From assembly GCF_000374165.1 (NCBI RefSeq), contig NZ_KB893718.1:1-59547 (forward strand): 59,547 nt of DNA, in the 5' to 3' direction. The position numbers and the translations under genes are program-made. This DNA is from Parafrankia elaeagni (GTDB lineage Bacteria > Actinomycetota > Actinomycetes > Frankiales > Frankiaceae). The notes under the pieces were generated by a model. The model saw nothing but the letters and a program-made list of their open reading frames with translations. It ran no database searches and was not told the origin of the DNA. Below, piece by piece: positions 53,785 through 57,790 of this stretch. Numbering within the stretch: the first letter of the stretch is position 1; each line of letters opens with the position of its first letter.

Positions 53785-54219
53785 TCAGCGCATGCGGGCG
53801 GTGCCGGTCTCGTCCAGATAGCCACGCATGTCGATGGCCATCGTGTGGACGTCATCCGCCGCGGGCTCGTCCTCGTCGTCCTCGGCGTCGCGGCTGTAGC
53901 GGAACGCCAGTCGCGGAAGCATCTGCGTCGGCGCGTCGACGAGGCCCGGCGCTGCCTCGATCAGCCCGGACTCCCAGTCGAGCTCCTTGCCGCTCAGCGG
54001 ACCGGACGGCAGGCTTTCCGCGGCCGGTGACTTCGTGACGATCACGAAGTCCAGCACGCCGAGAACGACGATCACTGCCAGGGCGGGGATGGCCGCGATC
54101 GGCCGCCACACGGTCAGGCCCACCATGACGAACACGGCGACGACGGTGAGGCCGCCGACGATATGCCTGCGCACCGGGGGCAGCGCGGGCACCTTCCGTC
54201 CACGCCGGTAATGCGCCAT
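53785..54219 (-). CDS. Small membrane protein with two transmembrane helices
   Basis: 144 aa from ATG 54219. A basic N-terminus (MAHYRRGRKVPALPPVRRH) precedes two adjacent membrane helices (about 24-44 and 48-65: GGLTVVAVFVMVGLTVW, IPALAVIVVLGVLDFVIV). The C-terminal half is hydrophilic with an acidic AEDDEDEPAADD patch. I do not recognise a family. It is divergent from the lipoprotein gene; the 359-bp gap shows no clear promoter. Confidence 0.65.
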   Translation of the reverse strand: MAHYRRGRKVPALPPVRRHIVGGLTVVAVFVMVGLTVWRPIAAIPALAVIVVLGVLDFVIVTKSPAAESLPSGPLSGKELDWESGLIEAAPGLVDAPTQMLPRLAFRYSRDAEDDEDEPAADDVHTMAIDMRGYLDETGTARMR

Positions 54220-54578
54220 ACCCGACAGTGTGCCCCCTCCGGGGTACCTGTCCAGAGCCGGGCACTTCTGTGCCCTGTTCCAGGCCTTGGACAGATCGGT
54301 ATTCGCAGTCCTCGCCGGGCTCGGACGGAGACCGGGTGGTGACCGACTGGCGCCCTCACCCGGGGGCCCGCAGGGTGGAGACCGGTGCCGCACCCGCCAG
54401 GGAGGGGGCGGTCATGGCAGCGGAGGGTAATCGGCGGTCGCTCTTTCCGGTAAATCTTCTCCGACCTCACACCGGAATGAGCGACACTTGCAATGGGAAA
54501 CACGAGATCCATCGCCGGTGTAGATCCATGGACCGGAGTCGCGTCATGGGCTCGACCTCGCGAGGCTGGAGGATCGCC

Positions 54579-55343
54579 GTGGAGGTTGGAAGTCGTGGCC
54601 TGCCACGACCACTGCCACGAGCCTGGCCATGTTCGCGGCCGAGATCCGGCCTCGTTCTGGTCGTCGTCGCGGTGGTCGCGCTACTGGCCGCTGTGGTCGG
54701 GTGCGGCTCGCCCAGTTACCAGTATGTAACGAACAAGAAAGACGGCGCGTTCCTCAAGGTGCCGGCCGGCTGGACGCATCAGGAGATGCCCGGGCCCGCG
54801 CTGTTCGGTATCGACGCCCGCACCGTGAGCCCGGAGATGCTTCGCGGCCTGATGTCGCGGGAGTGGGTCGTCGGCCTGGACGCGGCCGAGAAGTTCGACG
54901 AGACGAGCCTGTTCGTTCCCGACGCCCCCTTGCCGAAGGGCTTCGTCCAGGTGCGGCATCTCCTTCCGGAGGAGGCCCGGGCGGTCTCCACGAATGACCT
55001 GCGCAACTTCGTCGTCTCCGTCGACGACGCGGTCGCGGCGCAGGAGGAGGCGGTCCGCAAGGATCCCTACGGCGCGCGGATGGCGCCGAACTTCCTGCTG
55101 CTCGCCGACGAGTCGGTCGCGCAGGACGAGGGCGTCCACGGAGTGCACCTGGTGTACCAGGTGGCCACGGCGGCAGGCCTGGTGACCATTGATCAGACGA
55201 GCCTGCTGGACCAGAACCAGACCGTGCTCTACCAGCTCGTCCTGGCCTGTTCGGCGCTGTGCTACGCCCAGCACGGCGGGCAGATCGGCGAGGTCACGGG
55301 CTCCTTCACGATCAAGCCGACGGACCGAGGGCAGCAGGCATGA
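54579..55343 (+). CDS. Lipoprotein coupled to an FtsH-like protease
   Basis: 254 aa from GTG 54579, chosen because GGAGG lies six bases upstream and the product then has a signal peptide with a lipobox (VVGC, Cys42). Longer frames start at 54228 or 54414. The mature part (GAFLKVPAGWTH, then FVQVRHLLPEEARAVSTNDL) looks like a globular secreted domain of unknown family. It has two near-C-terminal cysteines (ACSALCYAQ) that could form a disulfide. Its stop overlaps the start of the protease gene by 4 bp, so the two are made together. Confidence 0.75.
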   Translation: MEVGSRGLPRPLPRAWPCSRPRSGLVLVVVAVVALLAAVVGCGSPSYQYVTNKKDGAFLKVPAGWTHQEMPGPALFGIDARTVSPEMLRGLMSREWVVGLDAAEKFDETSLFVPDAPLPKGFVQVRHLLPEEARAVSTNDLRNFVVSVDDAVAAQEEAVRKDPYGARMAPNFLLLADESVAQDEGVHGVHLVYQVATAAGLVTIDQTSLLDQNQTVLYQLVLACSALCYAQHGGQIGEVTGSFTIKPTDRGQQA

Positions 55344-57790
55344 GCACACGCGACCGGGCGGGACGTCCGGGATCCTCCACCGTGACGGGGCCCGTGGACG
55401 AGGACGGCGACGCGAGGCCGGGCGAGTCGCAGCGCCGCCGCCCCGCGGCGCTCTGGGACAGGGTGAAGTTCCTGCTTCTGCTCGGGGCGCTCTTCGCCTT
55501 CGTGGTGGCCGCGGACGTCTCGGGCAACCCACTGATGACGTGGGGCGACGCGATCCGCATCCAGGCGGAGTCGAGCTGGTGGATCCTGGCGCTGTTCGGC
55601 CTGGAGGTCGTCCACCAGATCCACATCTTTCTCGGCGAGCGGTCGGCGGGTTACTACCGCTTCTGGACGGAGAAGGTCTTCGGCCGCGCCGAACGCCGTC
55701 TGCAGCGCCTGAACGACTGGAACCGGTACCGGGTCAGCCGCGCGCTTAAGATCGTCGTCGCGCTGGCGCTGTTCCTGTTCATCTACGCGCGGATCGTCGA
55801 CGAGTCCCTCTTCGAGGCGACGGTCGGGTTGCCCGGCGCGGCCTGGGGCGCGATTCCCTATGTGCTGCAGATAGTTATGCTGATGCTGGTCGTCGTCGGC
55901 CAGTTCGTCGCGATCTTCTGGTTCCTGTCCAAGGGCGGCGTCGAGGTCTACTTCCCGGAGGACATCAAGACACGGTTCGCCGACGTGTGGGGCCAGGACC
56001 ACGTCGTCGGGCGGGTCCGGGAGAACGTGTTCTACCTTGAACGCCCGGAGGAGATCGAGGACCGCGGCGGTTACGTTCCGGGCGGCATCCTGTTGTGGGG
56101 CCCGCCGGGAACCGGTAAGACGCTGATCGCGGAGGCGGTCGCCGGCGAGACCGGCAAACCCTATGTCTTCGTCGACCCGGGCGCCTTCTCGGCGATGTTC
56201 GTCGGCGTCGGCATTCTGAAGGTCAAGTCGCTGTTCCGCAGACTGCGGAAACTGTCGCTGCGGTACGGCGGCGTGATCGTGTTCTTCGACGAGGCCGATA
56301 CCCTGGGCAACCGTGGCCAGCTCGCCACCGGCTTCGGGGGGAAGCTCGGCGGCGCGACCCCGTTTGCCGCCAGTGCCGCCCGCCCGGGCGGGTTCGCCGG
56401 CGGCCGCGACGTCTTCTCCGCCGGGCACGGCGCCTTCGGGGTGCCGGCGGGCGTGGCGTCGGTGGACACCTGTAACGGTTTCTCCTACCTCGACACCTTC
56501 GCCCAGGCGCAGATTGCCCGCGATCATGCGCAGCGGGACAACTTCGTCATGGGTGGAATGGGCGGCGGCGGAAAGGTCGACGGGACCCTGCAGGCGCTGC
56601 TTACCGAGATGTCGGGCCTGAAGAAGCCGCGCGGCTTCCTGAACCGGGTCGTGCGGCGCACCCTCGGCATGCGCCCGAAGCCGCCGCCGAAGTACCGCAT
56701 CCTGGTCATGATGGCGACGAACATGCCCCAGTCGCTGGACGAGGCCCTGCTGCGTCCCGGCCGCATCGACCGGATCTACAAGGTCGGCTACCCCAGCAAG
56801 GAAGGCCGGATCCGCACCTTCGAGGGCTATCTGGCCAAGGTGAACCACGAGCTGACGGCCGAGCAGATCGAGCGGCTCGCGATCATGAGCCCCGAGGCGA
56901 CCGGCGCCACCATCAAGGACACGGTCAACGAGGCTCTCGTCCAGGCGATCAAGGACGGCCGCGAGGTCATCACCTGGCAGGACATCCTCCGCGCCCGGGT
57001 GATCAAGGAGTACGGCCTCGCCGACGACCACGAGCACATCGCCCGCGAGCGGCACAGCATCGCGCTGCACGAGGCCTGCCACGCCGTCGTCGCCTACCGC
57101 ACCCAGCGTGGCCGGGTCATCGACCTGGCGACCATCGAGCGCCGCGGGGGAGTCGGCGGCTTCGTCGCGCATGTCGCCGTCGAGGACCGCATGTTCATGT
57201 GGAAGTCGGAGATCGAGATCCAGGTCATGGTGTCGCTCGCCTCGCTGGCCGGCGAACGGATGTTCTTCGACGGCGACAACACCGTCGGTGTCGGCGGCGA
57301 CCTGCGCAGCGCCACCCTGCTGGTCTCGGGCAACATCTCCTCGGCGGCGATGGGGGAGACGCTCGCCTCTCGGCTCAGCATGATCGAGCACCAGATGGGC
57401 CAGGCGTCCATCGACGCGGACCGGCCGTTCGGCGAGCAGGTCGAGGCCAAACTGCGGGAGCTCTACGAGCGCACCGAGGGCGTCCTGGCCGCGAACCGGC
57501 GTGAGGTGCTGTCGCTGACCCACGCGCTGGAGACCCACAAGACGCTCACCGGCGAGGACGTCGAAGCCATCATGGAGGGGACCGTCGGCCCGACCATCGA
57601 CGGCCGCCGCTACCTGGAACCCGGCTTCCTGGACGTCGCCGAGGCCTACCACCGCTCGGAGGTACTCGCCCACCGGGGGATGTACGAGAACGACGGCCTG
57701 CGCGAACTGCCCGAGCTCGGCAAGGCGGCGGCCCAGGAGGCACCGACCACCCCGCGCGCGCTGCCCGAGGGCCCGTCCACCACGAAGTGA
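55340..57790 (+). CDS. FtsH-like membrane AAA+ metalloprotease with a large AAA insertion
   Basis: 816 aa from ATG 55340. About four membrane helices occupy residues 43-60, 80-98, 135-151 and 172-197, against two in classical FtsH. The AAA module has Walker A GPPGTGKT (254-261), pore motif FVGVG, Walker B VIVFFDEAD (312-320) and the second region of homology ATNMPQSLDEALLRPGRIDR (459-478). About 85 Gly/Ala/Phe-rich residues are inserted after Walker B (around 325-412), and a basic Pro-rich segment lies at 427-451. The zinc protease site is complete: HEACH (577-581) and Asp654; classical FtsH has HEAGH. It probably degrades membrane or misfolded proteins with the coupled lipoprotein as partner (inference). 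Confidence 0.85.
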   Translation: MSTRDRAGRPGSSTVTGPVDEDGDARPGESQRRRPAALWDRVKFLLLLGALFAFVVAADVSGNPLMTWGDAIRIQAESSWWILALFGLEVVHQIHIFLGERSAGYYRFWTEKVFGRAERRLQRLNDWNRYRVSRALKIVVALALFLFIYARIVDESLFEATVGLPGAAWGAIPYVLQIVMLMLVVVGQFVAIFWFLSKGGVEVYFPEDIKTRFADVWGQDHVVGRVRENVFYLERPEEIEDRGGYVPGGILLWGPPGTGKTLIAEAVAGETGKPYVFVDPGAFSAMFVGVGILKVKSLFRRLRKLSLRYGGVIVFFDEADTLGNRGQLATGFGGKLGGATPFAASAARPGGFAGGRDVFSAGHGAFGVPAGVASVDTCNGFSYLDTFAQAQIARDHAQRDNFVMGGMGGGGKVDGTLQALLTEMSGLKKPRGFLNRVVRRTLGMRPKPPPKYRILVMMATNMPQSLDEALLRPGRIDRIYKVGYPSKEGRIRTFEGYLAKVNHELTAEQIERLAIMSPEATGATIKDTVNEALVQAIKDGREVITWQDILRARVIKEYGLADDHEHIARERHSIALHEACHAVVAYRTQRGRVIDLATIERRGGVGGFVAHVAVEDRMFMWKSEIEIQVMVSLASLAGERMFFDGDNTVGVGGDLRSATLLVSGNISSAAMGETLASRLSMIEHQMGQASIDADRPFGEQVEAKLRELYERTEGVLAANRREVLSLTHALETHKTLTGEDVEAIMEGTVGPTIDGRRYLEPGFLDVAEAYHRSEVLAHRGMYENDGLRELPELGKAAAQEAPTTPRALPEGPSTTK

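Follow-up and report, generated by a model that had tools for sequence, protein, structure and literature searches.

HflK and HflC are membrane proteins that form a cage, and in the accessible part of PMC12067869 canonical FtsH is described as having a small outer domain of its own, at which it is bound by HflK. Second FtsH copies as such are already known; PaFtsH2 of Pseudomonas aeruginosa clone C is, in the accessible part of its description, a second, xenologous FtsH from another species (PMC10850787). Here, a gene pair from the actinobacterium Parafrankia elaeagni is described which shares features with both systems and differs from both: within the 59,547 nucleotides analyzed of contig NZ_KB893718.1 (assembly GCF_000374165.1, positions 1 to 59,547, forward strand; this whole stretch is called the window), a gene for a putative lipoprotein (54579..55343, plus strand) directly precedes a gene for an FtsH-like AAA+ zinc protease of 816 residues with four predicted membrane helices (55340..57790, plus strand). 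The genome is of the Frankiaceae type, and the protease is 98% identical to that of Parafrankia colletiae, its nearest named relative among the best 80 of 164 homologous loci.

The reading favored here, for which the chances appear about even, is that the four-helix protein is a second, FtsH-derived, membrane-anchored ATP-dependent zinc protease which has its own clients and works together with the surface lipoprotein. More tentative is the proposal of a two-part, modular transmembrane machine for degradation at the outer side of actinobacterial membranes: an FtsH-derived four-helix ring would form the protease, and its outer-face receptor would be a lipoprotein which has its own gene and has been exchanged in evolution. 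As in the FtsH-HflKC system, judged by the accessible accounts of it (PMC13097134, PMC12067869), a protein other than the protease itself would control access from the outer face of the ring; unlike the cage-forming HflK and HflC, this partner would be a lipid-anchored lipoprotein, either of the PsbP fold or of a PDZ-TPR type. Like PaFtsH2, the protease is an FtsH-type enzyme present in addition to the core one and differing from it in role; going by what is accessible of the description of PaFtsH2 (PMC10850787), the four-helix family is set apart in that it scores far below the FtsH equivalog cut-off and has a lipoprotein. No description of the protease-lipoprotein pair was found in the open-licence PMC literature, among the matches listed. 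With its rebuilt membrane part and a neighboring lipoprotein that probably works with it, the second protease is a promising candidate for a membrane quality-control machine that has yet to be described.

By its sequence, the protease has an intact AAA+ motor, pore-1 loop and M41 zinc site. The likeness to FtsH comprises Walker A (GPPGTGKT, residues 254-261; 56099..56122), the pore-1 motif F-V-G (287-289; 56198..56206), Walker B (IVFFDE, 313-318; 56276..56293), sensor-1 N461 through the arginines R472, R475 and R478 of the second region of homology (SRH; 56720..56773), the HExxH-type zinc motif (HEACH, 577-581; 57068..57082), and Asp654 in GVGGD (57299..57301), which by analogy with FtsH we take to be the third zinc ligand; all of these, as all features below unless stated, are on the plus strand. 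In an alignment of 48 rows (47 of the 80 loci plus the window) K260/T261, D317/E318, N461, the three SRH arginines, H577/E578/H581 and D654 are each invariant (48/48), as is the pore-1 glycine, and the pore-1 phenylalanine is present in 47 of 48 rows with one gap. That the protein is a pseudo-protease was considered and rejected, the zinc ligands and the catalytic glutamate being invariant. Like FtsH, the protease has an N-terminal anchor, and its structure model (mean predicted local distance difference test score, pLDDT, 73.8) finds E. coli FtsH, AFG3L2, T. maritima FtsH and YME1 as fold matches, along with the FtsHi pseudo-protease complexes of chloroplasts.

The differences to FtsH begin with the anchor. 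Four N-terminal segments are predicted from hydropathy (residues 42-60, 81-99, 135-153 and 178-196), and the model places helices at residues 38-62 (55451..55525), 80-101 (55577..55642), 126-153 (55715..55798) and 157-198 (55808..55933), the last one long and leading into the ATPase. Loop charges agree with an N-in topology: the two inside loops that precede helix 4 have 0.27 and 0.19 lysine plus arginine per residue, versus 0.09 and 0.04 outside; the inside stretch after helix 4 reaches only 0.11. The outer loops are predicted to be short (about 17 and 11 residues) and no folded outer domain was detected in the protease, so that four predicted helices appear to replace the two helices plus folded outer domain of FtsH. 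Helix 2 has the weakest hydropathy of the four and carries, according to the alignment, the highly conserved polar residues E89, Q93, H95 and E100, which is unusual for a plain membrane anchor.

Two inserts interrupt the ATPase. Between Walker B and the TLQA helix there are 99 residues versus 23 in the genome's own canonical FtsH (+76), and this first insert (about residues 326-414; 56315..56581) falls in what is presumably the place where AAA proteases carry the pore-2 loop; it contains a conserved C-N-G-x-S-Y-L motif (56471..56491), in which the core C-x-G-x-x-Y has C378 in 46/48 and Y383 in 48/48 rows. Pore-2 loops occupy the axial channel in Yme1 and AFG3L2, according to the accessible part of PMC7226402. 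The second insert, basic and Pro-rich (about residues 428-451; 56621..56692), lies between the TLQA helix and the sensor-1 ATN, which are 43 residues apart versus 22 in the canonical FtsH (+21). The zinc motif is HEACH in 74 of 80 related loci, HEASH in five and HESCH in one. As judged from the aligned sequences, the altered features are conserved family-wide, hence reflect neither chance nor sequencing error. C378 and C580 were also considered as a covarying linked pair, an idea which was rejected (43 C/C, 3 C/S and 2 L/C of 48). The earlier note on this DNA, made from the letters of the sequence, had thus been right about the four or so N-terminal membrane helices, the further basic insert, HEACH instead of HEAGH, the retention of the catalytic and ATPase residues, and the 4-bp overlap of the two genes; its "roughly 85 extra residues" between Walker B and the SRH exist as an insert, the size of which is better given as 76.

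By sequence criteria the protein is a member of peptidase family M41 and not a canonical FtsH, which supports the separate FtsH-derived protease proposed in the earlier note. Pfam recognizes AAA (84.5 bits) and Peptidase_M41 (PF01434; 66.9 bits, cut-off 29.9), both above their cut-offs, which together with the FtsH-type fold would agree with an ordinary local FtsH bearing lineage-specific inserts; against the NCBIfam FtsH equivalog TIGR01241, however, it scores 218.2 bits, far below the cut-off of 600. Furthermore, the genome has two M41 genes, the other one being FtsH with a tilS-hpt open reading frame (ORF) upstream and folE downstream, and another, canonical-scoring M41 match (E 1.5e-62 or better) is present in 59 of 59 tested genomes carrying the four-helix protease (19 of the phylum sample described below and 40 more, one of which, G637, has a broken protease copy). 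In a tree of 77 rows the four-helix family forms one clade (35/35 rows, support 100/100), set apart from the canonical FtsH rows opposite to it (28/28, 100/100); two FtsH-like classes, B and C, fall between on the midpoint root, although the branching order of this tree, which is midpoint-rooted and has long branches, is not to be pressed. The local-FtsH explanation is refuted by the second M41 gene, the tree and the 59 genomes, and retains practically no probability.

Beyond the four-helix family, Actinomycetota have two more M41 classes that resemble FtsH, B (L152-L160) and C (L163-L168), both with an insert ahead of sensor 1. On the midpoint-rooted tree they are nearer to the four-helix family than to canonical FtsH, and the basic insert of class B resembles that of the four-helix protease. 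They differ from the latter in having one or two strong N-terminal hydrophobic segments and HEAAH, HESAH or HEAGH instead of HEACH, and in the lack of a nearby lipoprotein matching the profile (A1) of the four-helix family's; the distance from Walker B to the SRH in class B is about 100. Class C is co-resident with the four-helix protease in six genomes, and no genome of the phylum sample (296 genomes) had membrane-profile matches of both the four-helix and the class B kind.

The lipoprotein gene encodes 254 residues from a GTG start, six bases upstream of which lies a GGAGG; its stop shares ATGA (55340..55343) with the ATG of the protease. This exact overlap is not general: among the 65 relatives in which phmmer found a lipoprotein, 19 show a possible protease start at -4 or -1, and in the remaining ones the protease starts mostly 1-70 bp past the lipoprotein stop (about 240-250 bp in two).

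Linkage of the two genes was followed in searches centred on Actinomycetota. A scan of genome contigs gave the 164 loci, of which the best 80, all actinobacterial by title, were kept; many of them are Frankia, so that the loci are not independent. In 68 of the 80 the ORF immediately preceding the protease encodes a homologue of the lipoprotein. The 12 misses comprise three loci cut by a contig end (L039, L061, L080), seven of freshwater type from Nanopelagicaceae/Nanopelagicales (L043, L047, L050, L052) or Actinomycetota metagenome-assembled genomes (L048, L053, L057), six of which (all but L057) have aspS directly upstream of the protease, and finally L068 and L077. In a phylum sample of 296 genomes, 19 match the N-terminal membrane profile over its full length (E 3.6e-52 or better; G200 from position 18) and eleven more match part of it; the lipoprotein is beside the protease in 16 of the 19, the other three being G006, G021 and G073. 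Ten of the 277 genomes outside the 19 have weak lipoprotein matches (3e-5 to 1e-2), and in G245, likewise among the 277, the lipoprotein is matched in two pieces (best E 2e-12) and the protease is not.

A class sample of 394 genomes, partly overlapping the phylum sample, has the protease in 69 and the lipoprotein in 64 of these. In each of the 64 the two genes share contig and strand, and their profile matches are separated by 51-432 bp. The lipoprotein was found at E <1e-25 in none of the 325 genomes of this sample without the protease, one of which (G468) has a weak match of 1e-4. Among the five misses are two contig ends (G301, G335), two genomes with aspS directly upstream and no lipoprotein (G568, G607), and the broken copy of G637 (L210, contig C57), a possible misassembly in which an apparent lipoprotein piece lies near a protease without its first membrane helices. 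Of 36 genomes of the window's own family, 33 carry the protease, accompanied by the lipoprotein in 32; with these 33 positives set aside, the class sample has the lipoprotein with 32 of 36 proteases. The pair is found both in the window's family, whose genomes measure about 5 Mb, and in the smaller genomes (1.3-1.9 Mb) of family f92, where 14 of 15 positives have kept it, one of the 14 by a partial match. Among plasmid records there was one match at E 1e-60 or better, from Nonomuraea, in a stretch for which no features are listed. By these sequence matches the protease occurs in Frankia and scattered other actinobacteria, and its distribution is scattered but core-like. Neither of the two outcomes by which the earlier note would have been refuted was seen: the lipoprotein does adjoin most homologues, and a canonical-scoring FtsH is present elsewhere in the genome. 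For the co-occurrence of the two proteins, which the note had asked about, "always" is too strong given several lineages without the lipoprotein and two genomes with another one.

In these two genomes, G006 and G021 of family f15, the position of the PsbP-fold lipoprotein gene immediately before the protease is taken by a gene for another lipoprotein, in which PDZ and TPR domains are matched (L169:4329-5417 and L170:3764-4930, with gaps of 14 and 54 bp); in G006 both domains exceed the Pfam cut-offs, and in G021 TPR does so with PDZ just under. A third genome of the family has no protease match. PDZ and TPR are both peptide-binding modules. In so small a sample the exchange, read from sequence, suggests that what is needed is a lipoprotein at the outer face, of whichever fold.

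The pair also keeps its linkage in varied chromosomal surroundings, namely between aspS and alaS (L035, L046), between lrp and cysS (L054, L071), and among moa/mob-type and major facilitator superfamily (MFS) genes in the window. Outside the window the neighbors were named by reading their sequences rather than by a family search; their arrangement was compared by targeted checks, clustering being noisy from shadow frames in GC-rich DNA. The site made up of an amidohydrolase gene, an lrp-type regulator gene, the protease, cysS and a pepP-type gene is occupied by the pair in L054 and L071. In L068 the four-helix protease stands there by itself, and in L152-L158, where cysS and lrp are matched in 7/7, a class B protease takes its place, likewise with no lipoprotein; the class B loci L159 and L160 share less of this arrangement. 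The protease lies between aspS and DUF948/alaS in eight loci (L035, L043, L046, L047, L048, L050, L052, L053; alaS outside L048) and beside cysS in three (L054, L068, L071), so that tRNA synthetase genes flank it in two lineages.

The lipoprotein of the window is predicted to carry a signal peptide with a lipobox (VVGC) and to be lipidated at Cys42 (54702..54704); this cysteine is present in 68 of 68 aligned members, and a permissive lipobox pattern in 67. Most of the 68 also have a C-x3-C pair near the C-terminus (C224 in 66, C228 in 65). Its structure model (mean pLDDT 86.8) has the PsbP/Mog1/LpqN fold: Foldseek matched PsbP-like NDH subunits, CyanoP, PsbP, Mog1, MTC28 and LpqN (best E 5.6e-7) and, more weakly, DcrB (E 3e-3), with template-modelling scores of up to 0.67 by target and up to 0.43 by query. 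At the level of sequence, Pfam PsbP is matched by 14 of the 68 lipoproteins (best E 1.8e-5), the window protein not being among them; the latter is matched above cut-off by none of the Pfam and NCBIfam families, and the best match of the lipoprotein profile to PDB sequences, a PsbP-like chloroplast subunit, has only E 0.28. Several proteins of the PsbP-fold group are lipoproteins or assembly factors for membrane complexes. The group, comprising PsbP/CyanoP, LpqN, MTC28, DcrB, Mog1 and EagT6/SciW, has the same predicted fold as the window lipoprotein and differs from it in that no linkage to a membrane protease was found for its members in the literature searched, among the matches listed.

The favored reading would entail a hexamer in the plasma membrane which pulls membrane or membrane-attached proteins into a cytoplasmic chamber. 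Because the outer loops of the protease are so short, the lipoprotein might serve as the outer-face domain: lipid-anchored and encoded in one operon-like unit with the protease, it would dock onto the four-helix ring at its outer face and either recruit and bind clients or gate the ring from outside. Clients would then be threaded through the ring for cleavage in the zinc chamber on the cytoplasmic side, with the CxGxxY-bearing insert of the pore-2 region possibly tuning entry of the chain. A PDZ-TPR lipoprotein replacing the PsbP-fold one in one lineage would be consistent with an exchangeable outer receptor. We infer the physical partnership and the role in quality control; if they hold true, recognition of proteins at the outer side by such a machine, kept even in 1.3 Mb genomes, becomes directly addressable, and it can be asked whether the outer domain is swappable as a module.

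Several findings weigh against this. Lineages exist that keep the protease without a detected lipoprotein (the seven freshwater-type loci, L068/G073, L077 and G568), and therefore the lipoprotein is not strictly required for core function; absences in the genome samples, for which the best 7-12 first-look candidates were scored per genome, are not exhaustive. The distances of the two proteins correlate (Spearman 0.69; 40 loci, 780 pairs) to the degree which shared descent alone gives, and outer loop 1 does not clearly differ between rows with and without lipoprotein. Only two genomes, both of the same family, show the PDZ-TPR replacement. Within the protease, the first insert is mostly of low model confidence and disordered at 324-378 (pLDDT <50), and the missing FtsH_ext match (Pfam, up to E 1) is moderate evidence only, because the genome's own canonical FtsH matches this domain weakly as well (E 6e-5, just under the cut-off).

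Co-occurrence and tight linkage agree with a receptor no better than with a lipoprotein that regulates the protease negatively or is its client, co-expressed with it and setting its activity by its level, and a protease freed of its inhibitor could survive without the lipoprotein, as it does in some lineages. YfgM, a membrane-anchored TPR protein, offers a parallel. It is an FtsH substrate in E. coli, as stated in the accessible part of PMC13097134. This explanation is nevertheless unlikely, if to be taken seriously, since the mature lipoprotein would offer the ATPase no cytoplasmic segment to grip and the PDZ-TPR replacement fits a receptor better. Similarly improbable is that the genes are merely co-transcribed, the lipoprotein acting alone in the envelope like other PsbP-fold lipoproteins and the protease working alone: loss of the lipoprotein with retention of the protease, and the faster divergence of the lipoprotein (mean distance 0.53 versus 0.30 for the protease, in the 0.2-0.35 band), speak for it, but the linkage persists in different gene surroundings and the lipoprotein is absent from all 325 protease-less genomes at the threshold given above, the fragments in G245 notwithstanding. 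Least probable among these is an ATP-driven dislocase or chaperone, or a defence component; PADLOC models of IetA/TRIP13 match the AAA module and FtsHi complexes are among the fold matches, yet the zinc ligands and catalytic glutamate are invariant and the presence in 33 of 36 genomes of the window's family is unlike that of a patchy defence gene, which makes this very unlikely.

Two defence assignments were tried and rejected. For the IetAS anti-phage system, PADLOC matched the AAA module of the protease only and nothing in the lipoprotein. FtsH ternary conflict systems have two AAA domains, the first inactive, and a MoxR-vWA pair, as described in the accessible part of PMC7159879; the protease has one AAA module followed by M41, and no MoxR or vWA was found among five window neighbors scanned. 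On its 5′ side the pair is preceded by moaA-like, mobA-like and DUF6457 genes and then by a minus-strand ORF of 202 residues (53788-54393), divergent from the lipoprotein gene and without Pfam match; on the 3′ side an MFS_3 transporter gene follows on the opposite strand. As to the protease itself, the Herbidospora copy (L034:5974-8826) has a long C-terminal extension which reads like added membrane helices, and the copies of Microbispora and Planotetraspora are likewise extended.

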